From the NCBI GenBank assembly GCA_904377845.1, contig CAJFGR010000006.1, forward strand, positions 17,092-81,091: DNA of 64,000 bases. The letters run 5' to 3'. The notes below the pieces were generated by a model that made no database searches, had not been told where the DNA came from, and saw only the letters and a list, made by a program, of their open reading frames with translations. Of the stretch, positions 25,872-36,344 are shown in pieces (positions within the stretch are counted from its first letter, which is position 1; the number at the start of each line of letters is the position of its first letter). Source of the stretch: an uncultured Ruminococcus sp. (GTDB lineage: Bacteria > Bacillota > Clostridia > Lachnospirales > Lachnospiraceae). The position numbers and the translations under genes are program-made.

Positions 25872-25910
25872 AGAGCAGAGTATCTATGAGAGGTATTCTG
25901 CTCTTTTATT
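25872..25910 (+). terminator. Intrinsic terminator after GH32
   Basis: AGAGCAGA...TCTGCTCT followed by TTTATT. Confidence 0.65.
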
Positions 25911-25941: not shown

Positions 25942-25970
25942 TTGCCGAAAATCGCCCGTTCCGTTATAAT
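25942..25970 (+). promoter_or_regulatory. Sigma-A-type promoter for NRAMP/pxp operon
   Basis: TTGCCG-17 nt-TATAAT. Confidence 0.6.
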
Positions 25971-26006: not shown

Positions 26007-27227
26007 ATGGAAAAGACAAACAAAAAAAGCCTCAGCGTCCTGATCGGCGCTGCCTTTCTGATGGCAACTTCTGCCATCGGACCCGGATTCCTCACCCAGA
26101 CGGGAACATTTACAGGGAGCCTGAAAGCGAGTTTCGGATTCGTAATTCTGATCTCGGTCATACTTTCGGCAATTGTCCAGCTCAATGTGTGGCGCGTGCT
26201 CTGCGTCTCAGGCATGAGAGGACAGGACGTGGCGAACAAGGTGCTCCCCGGACTCGGCTATGTGGTAGCGTTTCTGGTTGTTGCAGGCGGACTTGTATTC
26301 AATATCGGTAACGTAGGCGGAGGAGCCCTTGGATTTAACACTCTGCTTGGCATACCGGAGAAAGTCGGCTGCTTTATCGCAGGCGGCGTTGCGATCGTGA
26401 TCTTCCTGATGAAAAACGCGCTGAATGCCATGGATACACTGACAAAGATCCTCGGCGGCATCATGATCGTCGTGATCTTCGTTGTGATCGTTATCGTTCA
26501 GCCGCCGCTTGGGATGGCGCTCAAAGAGACCGTCATGCCGACGGCTCCTATGGATGACCTCGGAACGGCTATTTTGACGCTCCTTGGCGGTACGGTCGGA
26601 GGATATATCACATTTTCCGGCGCTCACCGTCTGATCGACGCGGGAATCACAAAGAAAGAGAATCTCAAAGAGATCAACAAGAGTTCTGTCATGGGAATCG
26701 GCATCGCCACCATCGTGCGCGTGTTCCTGTTCCTTGCGATTCTTGGCGTCGTAGTTGCGACAGCTACATCACCGGCGCATACGCTTGATCCGGATAATCC
26801 GGCGGCAGACGCGTTCCGCATCGGTGCAGGCGAGATCGGATACCGCTTCTTCGGACTGGTTCTGCTCTGCGCGGCGATCACGTCGATCGTGGGCTGCGCG
26901 TATACTTCCGTGTCTTTCTTAAAGACATTCCACAAGAATATTGCAAAGCATGAAAATGCGATCATTGTAGCGTTTATCGCGCTGAGCACAGTCATTATGG
27001 CAGTCCTCGGAACACCGGCAGTCCTGCTCGTCCTTGCAGGCGCGGTGAACGGTCTGATCCTGCCCATCACGCTCGGTGTGTGTCTGATCGCCTCCAAGAA
27101 GAAATCAATCATGGGCGAAGACTATAAGCACCCGACATGGCTTCTGATCTGCGGTATCGTGGTCGTGATCGTATCCGCATACCTCGGGATCACGACGTTT
27201 GGATCGAACTTAAGCCAGCTTCTCTGA
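26007..27227 (+). CDS. NRAMP-superfamily transporter (YcsG-like, in pxp operon)
   Basis: Nramp-like fold sequence (IGPGFLTQTG in TM1 region; GGTVGGYITFSGAHRLIDAGI in TM6 region); operon context with pxpB/C/A. Confidence 0.82.
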   Translation: MEKTNKKSLSVLIGAAFLMATSAIGPGFLTQTGTFTGSLKASFGFVILISVILSAIVQLNVWRVLCVSGMRGQDVANKVLPGLGYVVAFLVVAGGLVFNIGNVGGGALGFNTLLGIPEKVGCFIAGGVAIVIFLMKNALNAMDTLTKILGGIMIVVIFVVIVIVQPPLGMALKETVMPTAPMDDLGTAILTLLGGTVGGYITFSGAHRLIDAGITKKENLKEINKSSVMGIGIATIVRVFLFLAILGVVVATATSPAHTLDPDNPAADAFRIGAGEIGYRFFGLVLLCAAITSIVGCAYTSVSFLKTFHKNIAKHENAIIVAFIALSTVIMAVLGTPAVLLVLAGAVNGLILPITLGVCLIASKKKSIMGEDYKHPTWLLICGIVVVIVSAYLGITTFGSNLSQLL

Positions 27228-27250
27228 TATAGAAAGGCGGGAGATTTAAA

Positions 27251-27979
27251 ATGAATGAAATCAAAATCTGTACTGCCGGGGATTCCTCTCTCCTGATCGA
27301 ATTCGGTCAGGAGATCTCCCCGGAGATCAACGCGCAGATCACGGCGCTGGTACGCATGATCAGGGCGCAGCATATCGAGGGTGTCACGGATATGATCCCC
27401 GCTTTCGCATCTCTGCTGATCAATTACGATCCCAGAGTGGTAAGCTATGCCGGCCTTCGCGCGCGCATGGAGAAGCTTCTGAAACTGGAGATCAGCGGGG
27501 AGGCTTCGGAATCAAGGATCTTTGAGATCCCGGTGTGCTACGGTGGAGAGTACGGCCCGGATCTTCAGAATATTGCAGATCACGCGGGACTGACTCCGGA
27601 AGAAGTGATCAAGATCCACAGCTCGGAAGACTATCTGATCTATATGCTCGGATTCCTTCCGGGATTCTCCTATCTGGGAGGTCTGGACGAGCGTATCCAC
27701 ACACCGAGGCTTGCCAACCCGAGGATCCGCATCCCGGCGGGAAGCGTCGGGATCGGAGGCTCCCAGACCGGCATTTATCCGCTGGATTCCCCGGGAGGAT
27801 GGCAGCTTCTCGGCATGACGCCGGTGAAGACTTATGATCCGGGAAGAGAAGTACCGATCCTTTTTGAAGCGGGAGACTATATACGGTTCGTTCCTGTATC
27901 TGAGGAGGAATATCTGGAAATAAAGAGACAGGTGGATGAGGGCACATACCAGTGTACGATCCATCAGAAAGGGGTGTAA
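27251..27979 (+). CDS. pxpB: 5-oxoprolinase subunit B / carboxyltransferase subdomain C-D (KipI-like)
   Basis: GDSSLLIEFG, GFLPGFSYLGGLDERIHTPRLANPR, VGIGGSQTGIYPLDSPGGWQLLG. Confidence 0.93.
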   Translation: MNEIKICTAGDSSLLIEFGQEISPEINAQITALVRMIRAQHIEGVTDMIPAFASLLINYDPRVVSYAGLRARMEKLLKLEISGEASESRIFEIPVCYGGEYGPDLQNIADHAGLTPEEVIKIHSSEDYLIYMLGFLPGFSYLGGLDERIHTPRLANPRIRIPAGSVGIGGSQTGIYPLDSPGGWQLLGMTPVKTYDPGREVPILFEAGDYIRFVPVSEEEYLEIKRQVDEGTYQCTIHQKGV

Positions 27980-27982
27980 TCG

Positions 27983-28987
27983 ATGGGCTTTCGTGTTTTA
28001 AAAGGCGGGATGCTGACTACAGTGCAGGATCTCGGGAGAACCGGCTACCAGAGCCAGGGCTTCAGCGTGTCGGGCGTCATGGATGTGCGCTCCTTCAAGA
28101 TCGCCAACCTGCTCCTTGACAATCCGGAGAATGAAGCGGTGTTGGAATTTACGCTGATGGGGCCGAGCCTTGAGTTTACCTCAGAGACGATCATCGCCAT
28201 CACCGGCGGGGATTTCCAGCCCCGTGTGAACAAGAAGCCGGTGAAGATGTACACGGCTCTCTACATGCACAAAGGAGATGTGCTCGACTTTGCGGGATGC
28301 CGCACCGGAAGCAGAGGATACATTGCATTTTCCAGTTATCTGGACATCCCGGTCGTCATGGGAAGCCGTTCGACGAATATCAAATGCGGCATCGGAGGCT
28401 TCAAGGGACGCAGGCTTAAAGACGGAGACTATATCGGTTTCCGGATCAAGAGAAGATATCTGCCGTATTTCCTCTCAAGAAGCCTTGACCTGGATGAGTT
28501 TGACTATGAGGACGTGACGCTGCGCGTTGTGATGGGACCTCAGGAGGATGTGTTCACCGCCGCGGGCAGGGAGACATTCCTGAATTCGGAGTATACGGTC
28601 ACCAGTGATTTCGACAGGATGGGATGCAGGCTGGAAGGGCCGTTTATCGCCTACAAGACTACGGCAGACATCATATCAGACGGCATCGCGTTCGGTTCCG
28701 TACAGGTGCCAAGCCATGGGAAACCTATCGTGCTTCTGTCCGACCGGCAGACAACCGGCGGATACGCGAAGATCGCGACCGTGATCTCAGTAGATATCCC
28801 GAAGCTTGCACAGTGTAAGACTGACAACAAGGTGCGCTTTCAGGCGGTAACGGTAGAGGAAGCCCAGCAGCTTCTGTTGGACGAAGTGGCAGAGATTAAT
28901 GAACTGCGCAGACAGATCTATCAGCCCTGTAAAGAAGTGCTCGAGTGCCGCCTCGTTGCAAAGCGTCTCAGCAGGCTGTTTCAGTAA
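27983..28987 (+). CDS. pxpC: 5-oxoprolinase subunit C / carboxyltransferase subdomain A-B (KipA-like)
   Basis: GGMLTTVQDLGRTGYQSQGFSVSGVMD; GPQEDVF; RMGCRLEGP; SDGIAFGSVQVPSHGKPIVLLSDRQTTGGY. Confidence 0.93.
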   Translation: MGFRVLKGGMLTTVQDLGRTGYQSQGFSVSGVMDVRSFKIANLLLDNPENEAVLEFTLMGPSLEFTSETIIAITGGDFQPRVNKKPVKMYTALYMHKGDVLDFAGCRTGSRGYIAFSSYLDIPVVMGSRSTNIKCGIGGFKGRRLKDGDYIGFRIKRRYLPYFLSRSLDLDEFDYEDVTLRVVMGPQEDVFTAAGRETFLNSEYTVTSDFDRMGCRLEGPFIAYKTTADIISDGIAFGSVQVPSHGKPIVLLSDRQTTGGYAKIATVISVDIPKLAQCKTDNKVRFQAVTVEEAQQLLLDEVAEINELRRQIYQPCKEVLECRLVAKRLSRLFQ

Positions 28988-29009
28988 ACGAATATAAGGA
29001 GAGAACGAT

Positions 29010-29432
29010 ATGGATTTGGAAAAGATTGAAAAACTGGTGAATATTATTGAGAAATCTTCCATGTTGGAATTCAGCATACAGGAAGGGGATACAAAGATAA
29101 AGATGAGCCGCAGGGGAAGCGCAGGCGCTCCGGGAGAACCGCTCACGGTCGTCAAGACAGAAGCGCCGGCCGAGGAGACTGTGGACGAGCATTATATCAT
29201 ATCTCCTATCGTGGGTACATTCTACTCGGCTCCGTCGCCGGATGCAGAGGCGTTTGTCAAAGTCGGCGATGTGGTAAAGGCAGGGCAGACCGTATGTATC
29301 CTTGAGGCAATGAAACTGATGAATGAGATCGAGAGTGATTATGACTGCGAGATCGAGGCAGTTCTCGTCAGCAATGAACAGAAAGTAGAGTACGGGCAGC
29401 CGCTCTTCAAGGTAAAGAAGCTGTCGGACTAA
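29010..29432 (+). CDS. accB: Biotin carboxyl carrier protein
   Basis: Biotinylation motif CILEAMKLMNEIE; SPIVGTFYSAPSPDAEAFVKVGD. Confidence 0.95.
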   Translation: MDLEKIEKLVNIIEKSSMLEFSIQEGDTKIKMSRRGSAGAPGEPLTVVKTEAPAEETVDEHYIISPIVGTFYSAPSPDAEAFVKVGDVVKAGQTVCILEAMKLMNEIESDYDCEIEAVLVSNEQKVEYGQPLFKVKKLSD

Positions 29433-29444
29433 GGAGGAGTGCTG

Positions 29445-30791
29445 ATGTTTCAGAAAATATTGATCGCAAACCGCGGAGAGATTGCCGTCAGGATCATCCG
29501 TGCCTGCCGGAATATGGGAATCCGCAGTGTGGCGGTTTATTCAAAGGAAGATAAGGACAGCCTTCACGTACAGCTTGCAGACCAGAGAATCTGTATCGGC
29601 GAGGGGCCGGCAAAGAACAGTTACCTGAACATGGAACGCATCGTGACGGCAGCTCTTAATATGGGCGCTGATGCGATCCATCCGGGATTCGGATTTCTGT
29701 CGGAGAACGCGGATTTTGTCCGGCTCTGCGAGAAGAACGGGTTGACCTTTATCGGGCCGAAAGCGGACGTGATCGACAGTATGGGAAATAAGTCCCATGC
29801 GCGTAAAACGATGATGGAAGCAGGAGTGCCGGTCGTACCGGGTACAAAAGATCCGGTGTATGATGCAGAGACCGGTATCAAGCTTGCGGAAGAGATCGGA
29901 TATCCGGTCATGATCAAAGCGTCTTCGGGCGGCGGCGGAAAGGGAATGCGTGTGGCAAAATCCGCCGATGAGTTTGAATTCCAGTTTAATATGGCCCAGA
30001 GAGAGTCTGCCAATGCATTCGGCGACGACACCATGTACATTGAGAAATTCATTGAGAATCCGCGCCACGTGGAGATCCAGATCATGGGGGATAAATTCGG
30101 CAATGTGGTGGCTCTCGGCGAACGTGACTGTTCGGTGCAGAGAAATCATCAGAAGCTGATCGAGGAGTCTCCGTCTCCGGCCATTAATGATGAGATCAGA
30201 AATGCAATGAACCGGGATGCTGTTCTTGCGGCAAAGACGGTAAACTATACCAATGCGGGAACAATAGAGTTTATTCTTGACCCGAAAGGGACGTATTATT
30301 TCATGGAGATGAACACCCGGATCCAGGTGGAGCACGGTGTTACAGAGATGGTCACGGGTACAGACCTGATCATCGAGCAGATCAGGGTGGCTATGGGAGA
30401 ACCTCTTAGCTTTAATCAGGAAGGAATCCGTCTGAATGGCCATGCCATCGAGTGCCGGATCAACGCGGAGATTCCGGAAAAGAACTTTATGCCCAGCCCC
30501 GGTGTGGTGAAGCACCTCCACCTCCCGGCAGGAAACGGTGTGCGGGTGGATACGGCGCTCTACACCGGTTACAGGATCCCTTCGGAGTATGATTCCATGA
30601 TCGCGAAAGTTATCGTACACGCGCCGAACCGCAATGCTGCGATCCAGAAGATGCGGTCTGCACTGGACGAGATGGTGATCATAGGAGTTGAGACGAATCT
30701 GGACTTCCAGTACCAGATCATGCGGAATCCGGAGTTCTGTGCAGGTAACGCGGATACCGGATTTATTGAGCGGATGCTCAGACTGGATTAA
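29445..30791 (+). CDS. accC: Biotin carboxylase
   Basis: KILIANRGEIAVRIIRACRNMGI; ATP-grasp SSGGGGKGMR; EMNTRIQVEHGVTEMVTG. Confidence 0.95.
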   Translation: MFQKILIANRGEIAVRIIRACRNMGIRSVAVYSKEDKDSLHVQLADQRICIGEGPAKNSYLNMERIVTAALNMGADAIHPGFGFLSENADFVRLCEKNGLTFIGPKADVIDSMGNKSHARKTMMEAGVPVVPGTKDPVYDAETGIKLAEEIGYPVMIKASSGGGGKGMRVAKSADEFEFQFNMAQRESANAFGDDTMYIEKFIENPRHVEIQIMGDKFGNVVALGERDCSVQRNHQKLIEESPSPAINDEIRNAMNRDAVLAAKTVNYTNAGTIEFILDPKGTYYFMEMNTRIQVEHGVTEMVTGTDLIIEQIRVAMGEPLSFNQEGIRLNGHAIECRINAEIPEKNFMPSPGVVKHLHLPAGNGVRVDTALYTGYRIPSEYDSMIAKVIVHAPNRNAAIQKMRSALDEMVIIGVETNLDFQYQIMRNPEFCAGNADTGFIERMLRLD

Positions 30792-30815
30792 TCAGAGAAA
30801 GAAGAGTGAATGAAT

Positions 30816-31586
30816 ATGTACAAAGTTGATTTAAACAGCGACCTTGGAGAGAGCTTCGGCCGTTATACACTGGGGATGGATGAGAAGATCATCCCGCTGA
30901 TCTCTTCGGCGAATATCGCCTGCGGATTCCATGCGTCAGATCCTGTCGTGATGATGGAGTCTGTCAGCAGAACAAAAGCAGCCGGCATCCGTATCGGAGC
31001 ACATCCGGGATTCCCGGATCTGATGGGATTCGGCCGCAGAAATATGGCGGTTTCCCCGGCGGAGGCAAAGGCGTACACACTGTATCAGATCAGTGCTCTG
31101 GGCGGTATGTGCCAGGCACAGGGAATGAAGCTGCAGCACGTGAAGCCCCATGGTGCGCTGTATAATATGGCGGCGAAGGACTACGACCTGTCCCTTGCCA
31201 TCTGCGAGGCCATCAAAGAGTATGATCCGGAGCTGATCGTCATGGGTCTTTCCGGAAGCGAGACGATCCGCGCGGCAAAGGACTGCGGATTAAAGACAGC
31301 CAGCGAAGTGTTCGCAGACCGCGGTTATGAGGAGGACGGAAGTCTGGTAAACCGCAGAAAAGAAGGCGCATTTATCCGTGATGAAGAGGAAGCGATCGCC
31401 AGAGTGATCCGTATGGTGAAAGAAGGAAAAGTTACCGCCGTGACAGGAAAAGATATCGAGATCCAGGCGGATTCTGTGTGCGTGCACGGGGACGGTGAGA
31501 AAGCGCTCCTGTTTGTGGAGAAGATCCGCAGTGCGCTGAAAGCAGAAGGAATAGAGATCGCTCCGTTAAGCGAGATCTGCCGGTAA
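30816..31586 (+). CDS. pxpA: 5-oxoprolinase subunit A (LamB/YcsF family)
   Basis: VDLNSDLGESFGRYTLGMDEKIIPLISSANIACGFHASDP; VKPHGALYN. Confidence 0.95.
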   Translation: MYKVDLNSDLGESFGRYTLGMDEKIIPLISSANIACGFHASDPVVMMESVSRTKAAGIRIGAHPGFPDLMGFGRRNMAVSPAEAKAYTLYQISALGGMCQAQGMKLQHVKPHGALYNMAAKDYDLSLAICEAIKEYDPELIVMGLSGSETIRAAKDCGLKTASEVFADRGYEEDGSLVNRRKEGAFIRDEEEAIARVIRMVKEGKVTAVTGKDIEIQADSVCVHGDGEKALLFVEKIRSALKAEGIEIAPLSEICR

Positions 31587-32550: not shown

Positions 32551-33597
32551 ATGTCGTTCACTGAGGCAAAGAGAAACGCAATCCGGAAATATATGCTGGA
32601 CAAGATACGATGTGATGATGCGGATTTTATAAAAAAGACTGCTGAGAATTTTGAAATATCTGAGACATCCGTGCGCAGGTATATTAAGGATTGCCTGGAT
32701 AAGGGGATAGTGACGGAAGACGCAGAAAGGAAGACCGGCCTTTTCCTTACGGCAGTGACAGAACAGTGGAATATGGTAAATGCAGGTATGCTGGAAGAAG
32801 ATGACCTGTACTGGACGCATATCAGCCCTTTTCTCGGTGAATTGCCTGACAATGTACAGGATATCTGGTACTATGCATTTACGGAAATCATGAATAATGC
32901 AATTGACCATTCCGGCGGGGATCAGATCAGGTTCGGAATACAGAAAGATGCCCTCTATACGGAAATTTCAATTACAGATAATGGTGTAGGAATATTTCAT
33001 AATATACAAGATTATTTCAGAAAGAAGTCAGGAATATCATTAAATTCTGAGCAGGCCGCCATGGAGCTGTATAAAGGAAGGCTGACTACAGATCCGGCCA
33101 GACATTCAGGAGAGGGGATTTTCTTTGTATCGAAAATGCTTTCGGAGTTTGCCGTCTGGTCTGATAATACGGTCTATTCTTACCGGTGTGATGACAGAGA
33201 CCGGTTTGTACAGTCACATTTGATTTCTTATTATACAAAGATGGAGGGGATAGGGACGATGGCTGTGATGAAACTGGAAAATGAAACAAAAAGGACTTCG
33301 AGGGAGATTTTCGATGCATTTGCTCCGTTGGAAGAAGGTTTTGTAAAGACGATGATCCCGATGAAAGAGATGTGCCCGCTGGGCGATCCGGTAGCCAGAT
33401 CGCAGGCAAGGCGGATCCTTCGGCGTCTGGACGAATTCCGGGAGATTATTTTTGATTTTTATGATATTGATTTCATGGGGCAGGGGTTTGCAGATGAAGT
33501 ATTCCGCGTCTTTCAGGATCAGCATCCGGATATTACGCTGACTGTGATCAATGCGAATGAATCGGTGCTGGGGATGATCCGGCACGTAAAGCGCTGA
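32551..33597 (+). CDS. HTH + GHKL ATPase + STAS-like (DUF4325-like) one-component regulator
   Basis: N-terminal HTH (SVRRYIKDCLDKGIVTED), EIMNNAIDHS...ITDNGVGI...HSGEGIFF HATPase motifs, C-terminal IIFDFYDIDFMGQGFADEVFRVF. Confidence 0.75.
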   Translation: MSFTEAKRNAIRKYMLDKIRCDDADFIKKTAENFEISETSVRRYIKDCLDKGIVTEDAERKTGLFLTAVTEQWNMVNAGMLEEDDLYWTHISPFLGELPDNVQDIWYYAFTEIMNNAIDHSGGDQIRFGIQKDALYTEISITDNGVGIFHNIQDYFRKKSGISLNSEQAAMELYKGRLTTDPARHSGEGIFFVSKMLSEFAVWSDNTVYSYRCDDRDRFVQSHLISYYTKMEGIGTMAVMKLENETKRTSREIFDAFAPLEEGFVKTMIPMKEMCPLGDPVARSQARRILRRLDEFREIIFDFYDIDFMGQGFADEVFRVFQDQHPDITLTVINANESVLGMIRHVKR

Positions 33598-34635: not shown

Positions 34636-34812
34636 ATGGAGTTCAATATGAAACAATGGATCGCAGACTGTATCAGTTCACCGGTAAAAAAGGCAATGCC
34701 AATCCTCTCTTTTCCGGGAGTACAGCTTACCGGACATTCGGTTGACGAGATGGTACGTGACGGACACCTTCAGGCAATGTGTATAGAAGAATGCTTCCGT
34801 CTGTACAGATAA
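34636..34812 (+). pseudogene. N-terminal fragment of uroporphyrinogen decarboxylase/MtaA-like methyltransferase
   Basis: 58-codon ORF MEFNMKQWIADCISSPVKKAMPILSFPGVQLTGHSVDEMVRDGHLQAMCIE-ECFRLYR*; matches only the start of the family. Confidence 0.65.
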
Positions 34813-36344
34813 CTGTCATGACAGAAAACGGAGAAATTACAGTCAGCGGCAGGAAAAAAGATTCTCTGCTTACAACCCTGCGGGAACATGATATTTTTAT
34901 TCCGGCAGTATGCGCGGGACGAGGTGTATGTGGAAAATGTGCAGTACGTTTTGTAGAAGGTGTGACTCCTGTTACAGAGAAAGATAAACTCTTCTTTACA
35001 AAAGAAAAGCTGGAGGAAGGCTACAGACTGTCATGCTGTGCATATCCGCAGCATTCGTGTACAGTTGTTGTGAATGAGAGTGTGGAAAACCGTTTTTTTG
35101 TCCTCACAGACGATGCGGATAACGGATTAGAGGAATCAGCGCCGTCAGACATGGAAAATAATTACGGAATTGCGGCAGACATCGGGACTACGACGATTGC
35201 AATGCAGATGATCAGAATGCCGGAGATGATAACTGCGGGTGTGTATACTGATATTAACCGGCAGCGGGCTTATGGTGCGGATGTGATCAGCAGGATCGAA
35301 GCGTCTAATACAGGAAAGAAAGAAGAATTAAAAAACAGTATCCGCAGGCAGTTAAAAGAAGGCATCACATCTTTGACAAAAGATAAAGATGGTGTTGTAA
35401 AGCAAATGATTATCGGCGGAAATACAGCAATGATCCATTTACTTATGGGGTATTCATGTGAGACTCTGGGGGTATATCCGTTTACACCGGTCAATATTTC
35501 CGCAATCCATACATCATACGGGGAAATGTTCGGTAAAGGGGAATATGATTTTGATATTACAATCTGCCCGGGGATCTCGGCTTATGTAGGAGGGGATATC
35601 ACTGCCGGACTTTATGCACTTGATTTTGATAAAATGGAAAGACCCTGTGCATTGATCGATCTGGGAACGAACGGTGAGATGGCAGTTGGCTGCCGGGATA
35701 AGCTTCTCGTTACATCAACTGCCGCAGGACCTGCGTTCGAAGGCGGAAATATTGTCTGCGGCACAGGAAGTATTCCGGGAGCTGTATGCGGCGTAGACAT
35801 AACAGGTGATCAGGTGAAACTGAGGACGATCGGAGATGAAGTCCCGTCCGGAATCTGCGGAACCGGAGTGATCGAAGCGGTATATGAGCTTAAGAAAAGC
35901 GGGATTATTGACGAGACAGGTCTGATGGAGGAACCGTATTTTGACGAGGGTTTTTTACTATACGGGGGCGGCACTGAAATCAGGCTGTACCAGAAAGATA
36001 TCAGGGAGATCCAGCTGGCCAAATCTGCTGTCCGGGCCGGATTCGAGACACTGCTTCTAAGATACGGGATTACGTATAACGAGATCGACCGGATCTATAT
36101 TGCCGGAGGATTCGGACATCAAATGAATGCCGCCAAGGCAGCCGACATTGGTCTTCTGCCGAAAGAATGTCTGGACAGGATCACGGCGGCAGGCAATACG
36201 TGTCTGAGGGGAATAACAGCATATCTGTCAGATGATGCGGCAGAGTTACGGATGAGAGATCTGGCAGAGAAGGCAGAGGAAGTGCAGCTTTCCAATGACA
36301 GGCAGTTTCAGGAATTATATATGGAATATATGTATTTTGAGTAG
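34791..36344 (+). CDS. RACo-like corrinoid activation protein ([2Fe-2S] + ASKHA/DUF4445-type ATPase)
   Basis: CAGRGVCGKCAVRF ferredoxin motif; AADIGTTTIAMQM; LIDLGTNGEMAVG; YIAGGFGHQMN. Confidence 0.88.
   Translation: MLPSVQITVMTENGEITVSGRKKDSLLTTLREHDIFIPAVCAGRGVCGKCAVRFVEGVTPVTEKDKLFFTKEKLEEGYRLSCCAYPQHSCTVVVNESVENRFFVLTDDADNGLEESAPSDMENNYGIAADIGTTTIAMQMIRMPEMITAGVYTDINRQRAYGADVISRIEASNTGKKEELKNSIRRQLKEGITSLTKDKDGVVKQMIIGGNTAMIHLLMGYSCETLGVYPFTPVNISAIHTSYGEMFGKGEYDFDITICPGISAYVGGDITAGLYALDFDKMERPCALIDLGTNGEMAVGCRDKLLVTSTAAGPAFEGGNIVCGTGSIPGAVCGVDITGDQVKLRTIGDEVPSGICGTGVIEAVYELKKSGIIDETGLMEEPYFDEGFLLYGGGTEIRLYQKDIREIQLAKSAVRAGFETLLLRYGITYNEIDRIYIAGGFGHQMNAAKAADIGLLPKECLDRITAAGNTCLRGITAYLSDDAAELRMRDLAEKAEEVQLSNDRQFQELYMEYMYFE

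Follow-up and report, generated by a model that had tools for sequence, protein, structure and literature searches.

What is a biotin carboxylase pair doing inside an operon for 5-oxoproline breakdown? The question is raised by positions 27251-31586 of the window, by which we mean the whole 64,000-nucleotide stretch analysed here, taken from contig CAJFGR010000006.1 of an uncultured Ruminococcus sp. At this locus the genes of the PxpABC 5-oxoprolinase occur together with accB, encoding a biotin carboxyl carrier protein (BCCP), and accC, encoding a biotin carboxylase (BC). The original prediction proposed that pxpB, pxpC, accB and accC could rebuild a split urea-carboxylase-like enzyme. We strongly infer that AccBC is a dedicated part of the 5-oxoprolinase unit, and we tentatively favour carboxyl transfer to 5-oxoproline as its role. 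All statements on function are drawn from sequence, structure and gene order.

Clustering of accBC with pxp genes is known from SEED-type annotation, and automatic annotation already names such PxpCs ‘biotin-dependent carboxyltransferase family protein’. Lombard and Moreira noted split urea-carboxylase-like carboxyltransferase (CT) genes and assigned them no function (PMC3199775), and a genome paper on Lactiplantibacillus pentosus lists an extra AccBC and pxpBC separately (PMC12427679). A literature search that had most subscription journals outside its scope returned no paper tying accBC to pxp genes and no experimental link between them.

A second accBC pair within a pxp operon

The genes nramp-pxpB-pxpC-accB-accC-pxpA form a single plus-strand run (26007-31586) with intergenic gaps of 3-24 nt, and in a profile search all of its open reading frames are matched by family models. 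PxpB (27251-27979), which corresponds to CT subdomains C/D, gives 230.6 bits against TIGR00370 (cut-off 145.6) and 265.8 bits against CT_C_D, while PxpC (27983-28987), corresponding to subdomains A/B, gives 284.8 bits against TIGR00724 (cut-off 230.2) and 302.9 bits against CT_A_B. AccB (29010-29432) matches TIGR00531 with 152.2 bits (cut-off 115.2), AccC (start at 29439 or 29445, end at 30791) matches TIGR00514 with 690 bits (cut-off 626.5), and PxpA (30810-31586), of the LamB/YcsF family, scores 346.5 bits with Pfam LamB_YcsF and 377 bits with NF003814. The family models thus agree with the original reading of the run as PxpB, PxpC, a BCCP with an EAMKLM motif, a complete BC and PxpA. With PxpA, PxpB and PxpC adjacent and over their family cut-offs (PxpC by TIGR00724), the locus qualifies as a PxpABC 5-oxoprolinase.

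The genome assembly (2.76 Mb in 74 contigs, about 99% complete) encodes two biotin carboxylases and two BCCPs, and no more. The second pair lies on contig C42 in a standard fatty-acid cluster, fabF-accB-fabZ-accC-accDA-fabK, in which the flanking gene names were read from sequence and AccDA was confirmed by its Carboxyl_trans match. This fused AccDA is the genome's sole Carboxyl_trans (AccD/AccA-type) match. The original prediction had noted that the run contains no AccA/AccD, and it depended on there being a further accBC beside accAD; both points hold, as a separate fatty-acid accBC-accDA exists. The operon AccBC, having no AccA/AccD partner, does not amount to an acetyl-CoA carboxylase, and a role as the fatty-acid acetyl-CoA carboxylase is rejected in view of the separate complete set. 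As a side observation, Faecalispora jeddahensis (L172) and Clostridium sporosphaeroides (L174) carry AccA/AccD-like CT genes, but one AccC (pxp-linked) or none was found.

Co-inheritance and probable physical coupling of AccBC with PxpBC

The nearest named relatives of the source genome are Mediterraneibacter. PxpC is present in 7 of 25 same-genus genomes and a second AccC, 89-100% identical to that of the window, in exactly those 7, a co-presence that reflects one block and so represents few independent events. Of the other 18 genomes, one that is fragmentary yielded no AccC, and in the remaining 17 the fatty-acid AccC (63-65%) is the only one. In a set of 80 neighbourhoods, mainly from a 300-genome phylum sample with relatives added, linkage to accBC is rare, being seen in the window's genus and in two genomes of one other family that is lactobacillus-like by gene content. 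In 80 PxpC relatives from named genomes, the accBC block is always present at a PxpC identity of at least 68% where the contig reaches, bar two decayed cases. For all such counts, ‘unlinked’ means that no accBC lies within about 7 kb, and contigs that break off were excluded. One locus initially considered as linked (L159) was rejected, as its accBC lies on the opposite strand about 6 kb off and is probably not tied to the pxp genes.

The syntenic block nramp-pxpB-pxpC-accB-accC-pxpA is also found in Streptococcus porci, S. ovuberis, Globicatella and Turicibacter, which indicates transfer of the whole operon between families. Terrisporobacter and Eggerthellaceae have the block with an added gene for D-glutamate cyclase, a 5-oxoproline-making enzyme that is found in several linked operons. 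Lactiplantibacillus, Azospirillum, Rhizobium, Agrobacterium and Rubrobacter plasmids carry the same gene families in other orders. Conserved over dozens of genera, the arrangement is not a product of chance.

In the PxpC tree, the window clade and Eggerthellaceae form one supported group comprising 42 linked rows, two rows with a degenerate BC (pseudo-BC, discussed below) and no unlinked rows. The pxp-linked BCs of the same organisms likewise form one clade (100/99) apart from the fatty-acid BCs, and a change from EHP to EHG beside the active-site loop is diagnostic for the window BC clade, with Cys in four Eggerthellaceae. The rows from lactobacilli, from alphaproteobacteria with Rubrobacter, and from Faecalispora and Rhizobium are placed elsewhere in the BC tree. 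The tree contains 5 label changes (bootstraps 4-5), of which well-supported branches alone force only 2; on this tree, pxp loci appear to have acquired BC about 4-5 times.

Physical coupling is suggested by a natural fusion. In F. jeddahensis (L172:7979-9346) a normal pxpB-pxpC is followed by another PxpC that continues in the same reading frame into a BCCP (CT_A_B at 27-286, Biotin_lipoyl at 382-453, motif ESMKIM), and then by accC and D-glutamate cyclase. This fusion rests on one assembly, and a survey of 246 further genomes from the order found no other case. A candidate docking segment for AccC/AccB is the C-terminal tail of the window PxpC, about residues 309-334 (‘RRQIYQPCKEVLECRLVAKRLSRLFQ’; 28907-28984, plus strand). 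The tail motif PCxEVLxxRxxAKRLxxLF or a variant of it occurs in PxpC of the window clade, Terrisporobacter and Eggerthellaceae, and AlphaFold predicts a helix at 317-333 with modest confidence. The third line of evidence is PDB entry 9yx5 (released 2025-11-26), in which a Mycobacterium smegmatis long-chain acyl-CoA carboxylase is bound to MSMEG_0435-0436, homologs of PxpC/PxpB with the same Arg as the window PxpB (discussed below). Like the window set, this complex joins R-type (Arg-containing) PxpC/PxpB homologs to a BC-BCCP subunit (AccA3); unlike it, MSMEG_0435-0436 have no dedicated BC or BCCP.

Carboxyl transfer and its alternatives

The biotin parts of the operon have intact motifs. The biotinylation motif EAMKLM lies at AccB residues 99-104 (29304-29321, plus strand) with K102 as the biotin-bearing Lys, and E-[AV]-M-K is present in all linked relatives that have an accB. 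Checked against the H. influenzae and E. coli BCs, the window AccC keeps the equivalents of K116, K159, H209, E211, Q233, H236, K238, E276, E288, N290, R292, Q294, E296 and R338. These residues are kept wherever accB exists in linked loci, and all but H236 are invariant. In most lineages, then, selection maintains both the biotin Lys and the active site of BC, which argues that charged biotin is used. As PxpBC is the only candidate acceptor enzyme encoded alongside AccBC, we take carboxyl transfer to 5-oxoproline as the leading reading, at a confidence somewhat short of probable. Read in this way, the operon suggests that repair of damaged amino acids can require biotin.

A scheme can be proposed in which the six genes would form one 5-oxoproline recycling unit. 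PxpB-PxpC would be a two-chain CT-like core, and AccC and AccB dedicated subunits docked to it, probably through the clade-specific PxpC tail. AccC would charge the biotin of AccB using ATP and bicarbonate; PxpBC might then take the activated carboxyl and activate the lactam by N- or O-carboxylation of 5-oxoproline, whereupon PxpA would open the ring to give glutamate and CO2. The NRAMP protein would supply metal or substrate. The more specific proposal of a five-subunit biotin-dependent 5-oxoprolinase, which uses carboxybiotin instead of direct phosphorylation, whose PxpBC works without the urea-carboxylase base, and whose dead BC fold is kept for structural reasons in some streptococci, is possible but more tentative. 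A loose chemical parallel is offered by the ATP-dependent caprolactamase CapAB, which needs ATP and bicarbonate for lactam opening and for which a carboxyphosphate/carboxy-lactim route was proposed (PMC8453981); unlike the window proteins, CapAB belongs to an unrelated family and uses no biotin.

Evidence that weighs against carboxyl transfer comes from the PxpB active site, from the classical enzyme, from lineages that have lost the biotin parts and from limits of the physical evidence. Urea carboxylase, as in K. lactis urea amidolyase (KlUA) and bacterial Uca, is built like the window set from BC, BCCP, CT A/B and CT C/D parts, and its CT is close to PxpC in fold (26% identity, TM 0.82 by Foldseek); the AlphaFold model of the window PxpC (pLDDT 87.8) has E. 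coli YbgJK, MSMEG_0435-0436 and urea carboxylase as its nearest solved folds. The differences are that the window set comprises four split genes, which give only partial matches to the single-chain model TIGR02712 (cut-off 1303.9), that PxpA takes the place of allophanate hydrolase, and that the general-base Lys is replaced by Arg. The CT step in K. lactis urea amidolyase likely has K1605 as its general base (PMC5770610). Aligned with two bacterial urea carboxylases and classical PxpB, this residue corresponds in the window PxpB to R153 (codon at 27707-27709, plus strand), within a TPR motif as in classical PxpB, so that the window protein has the classical active-site Arg and not the urea-carboxylase Lys. 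Arg occupies this position in 66/67 unlinked and 48/52 linked rows, and Lys is found in the two urea carboxylases and in sets from alphaproteobacteria and Rubrobacter (K-type).

Sets linked to accBC thus come in an Arg kind, which includes that of the window, and a Lys kind. The K-type sets have the same five families clustered, but differ from the window in their 78-aa BCCP (PRK07051 type), their PRK12833-type BC of a separate lineage, and the Lys in PxpB, which scores 120 bits as urea carboxylase against 72 as PxpB. They are nearer to urea carboxylase and are probably true N-carboxylases. Clusters in the order pxpA-accB-accC-pxpB-pxpC were seen at L093:3631-7975, L094:3717-7972, L098:3579-8037 and L099:2726-6969, one of them beside hut genes. 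For the window, the idea of a split urea-carboxylase-like enzyme therefore survives as a dedicated accBC tied to PxpBC, through the second accBC, co-occurrence, synteny, recruitment, fusion and 9yx5, but finds no support as urea-carboxylase-like chemistry, given Arg at the general-base position.

Classical PxpABC, with the same Arg, was reportedly described by Niehaus in 2017 as an ATP-dependent 5-oxoprolinase made from PxpA, B and C alone. Such a stand-alone ATP-dependent enzyme is partly echoed elsewhere (PMC8453981, PMC13274462). The classical systems (B. subtilis YcsF-KipI-KipA; E. coli YbgL-YbgJ-YbgK) share with the window the PxpA/B/C families, the PxpB Arg and a YcsG-like NRAMP gene, and a D-glutamate cyclase (YcsI) family gene is found with them as in some linked relatives; the window differs in having accB and accC inside the operon and the extra PxpC tail. 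On the physical side, the tail is present in 43 linked rows (L155 is without it), in both pseudo-BC rows and in 0/66 unlinked rows outside the K type, a distribution that gives only 3 independent pairs, too few origins for a statistical test. The 9yx5 complex also contains two CT subunits of the AccD4/AccD5 type, and binding of MSMEG_0435-0436 there may be regulatory.

The two pseudo-BC loci, from Streptococcus sp. ‘caviae’ (L145) and a termite-gut Oscillospiraceae metagenome-assembled genome (L138), have lost accB, and their AccC lacks the ATP-grasp lid and the catalytic motif, whereas all three pxp genes remain intact. They stand in different supported parts of the PxpC tree. Two lineages that keep PxpABC after loss of BCCP and BC lid, in Streptococcus with PxpABC under strong purifying selection, indicate that biotin chemistry is not indispensable to PxpABC; this weighs against the claim that ring opening goes through biotin rather than through PxpABC alone. 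Among clade-specific PxpB and PxpC residues examined for changes that track biotin loss, only PxpC D281 changes in both lineages, and no significance is attached to it. The shortened Streptococcus BC, a 389-aa BC-like protein without lid or BCCP partner, is an open frame in 4/247 genomes (L145:8048-9217, L269:7159-8328, L270:7203-8375 and L271:7533-8702), all within pxp operons and 88-100% identical. Its dN/dS is 0.21-0.31, compared with about 0.04-0.14 for neighbouring pxp genes, and its AlphaFold model shows a confident fold in which a flexible linker replaces the lid. It is probably a real protein and a candidate pseudoenzyme subunit: derived from BC, it would lack BC chemistry, and the constraint on it is relaxed yet clear. 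The L138 case, known from a single metagenome-assembled genome, could be simple decay.

Taken together, the base-position Arg, the classical PxpABC reported to do without biotin and the loss variants make a regulatory or structural role of AccBC nearly as likely as carboxyl transfer. It is a serious possibility that PxpABC is here an ordinary self-sufficient ATP-dependent 5-oxoprolinase, to which AccC/AccB dock as a stabiliser or as a regulator, for example of bicarbonate or biotin status. R153 would then be expected, being the same as in classical PxpB; a catalytically dead, BCCP-less BC with a predicted lid-less BC fold is conserved in the 4 Streptococcus genomes, with a similar state having arisen independently in L138; and the mycobacterial PxpBC homolog binds an acyl-CoA carboxylase equipped with CT subunits of its own. 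An inert scaffold would, however, have no need for the biotin Lys or the BC catalytic residues, both of which are retained at every other linked locus, nor does it sit well with BC and BCCP having been recruited together repeatedly. Probably, the biotin part is an add-on to a core that can work without biotin.

That the main target of the five-gene enzyme is a different lactam, a ureide or a hydantoin-like compound, which it would hydrolyse and carboxylate in a biotin-dependent way, is suggested by close CT homologs that carboxylate urea and by the K-type sets, with their likeness to urea carboxylase and the hut genes beside one of them; we consider it unlikely, as the window PxpB passes the 5-oxoprolinase model with the classical residue and D-glutamate cyclase stands in several linked R-type operons. 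Still less credible is that the pair serves as a spare half of acetyl-CoA carboxylase, working in fatty-acid synthesis with the housekeeping AccDA. Family models do label the pair as acetyl-CoA carboxylase, and the L. pentosus study interprets such an extra copy in terms of lipid metabolism (PMC12427679), but the housekeeping accB-fabZ-accC-accDA is complete elsewhere in the genome, the extra pair is gained and lost along with pxp and not acc genes, its BC has its own clade with the EHG signature, and the PxpC::BCCP fusion speaks against such a role. This suggests that the label ‘extra acetyl-CoA carboxylase’ is mistaken in many annotations from gut Clostridia and lactobacilli. The widespread accBC-linked subgroup, the natural fusion and the loss variants offer handles on how PxpBC, which is without an obvious ATP site, activates 5-oxoproline.

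Operon start and neighbouring genes

The first gene of the run (26007-27227, plus strand; Pfam Nramp, 101.8 bits) encodes an NRAMP/YcsG-like transporter, and an nramp gene lies 5′ of pxpB in every close relative whose contig allows. The cargo of YcsG is unsettled in the literature, with Mn2+ reported for B. subtilis YcsG and 5-oxoproline as the other candidate (PMC10448178, PMC13274462). The transcription unit thus probably starts one gene before pxpB, with this transporter. A terminator-like hairpin of 14 pairs, 3′ of a GH32 gene, marks a candidate upstream limit (25872-25904, plus strand; consensus scan) and is followed by a sigma-70-like promoter candidate, TTGCCG-17-TATAAT (25942-25970, plus strand; 10/12 matches); neither exceeds the shuffle expectation for the region. 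An Rfam scan of 24-34 kb in the window gave no match.

The window PxpC reaches 243.8 bits with the narrow model NF045499, compared with a cut-off of 500. This was considered as a sign of altered PxpC function and rejected, as two unlinked PxpCs (L020 and L171) also miss the cut-off.

Near the operon, 32551-33597 (plus strand) encodes a protein with a HATPase_c domain and a STAS-like DUF4325. Further along, at 34779-36344 (plus strand), lies a gene for a RACo-like reductive activator (Fer2 and ASKHA domains) that adjoins peptide/nickel-type ABC transport genes.

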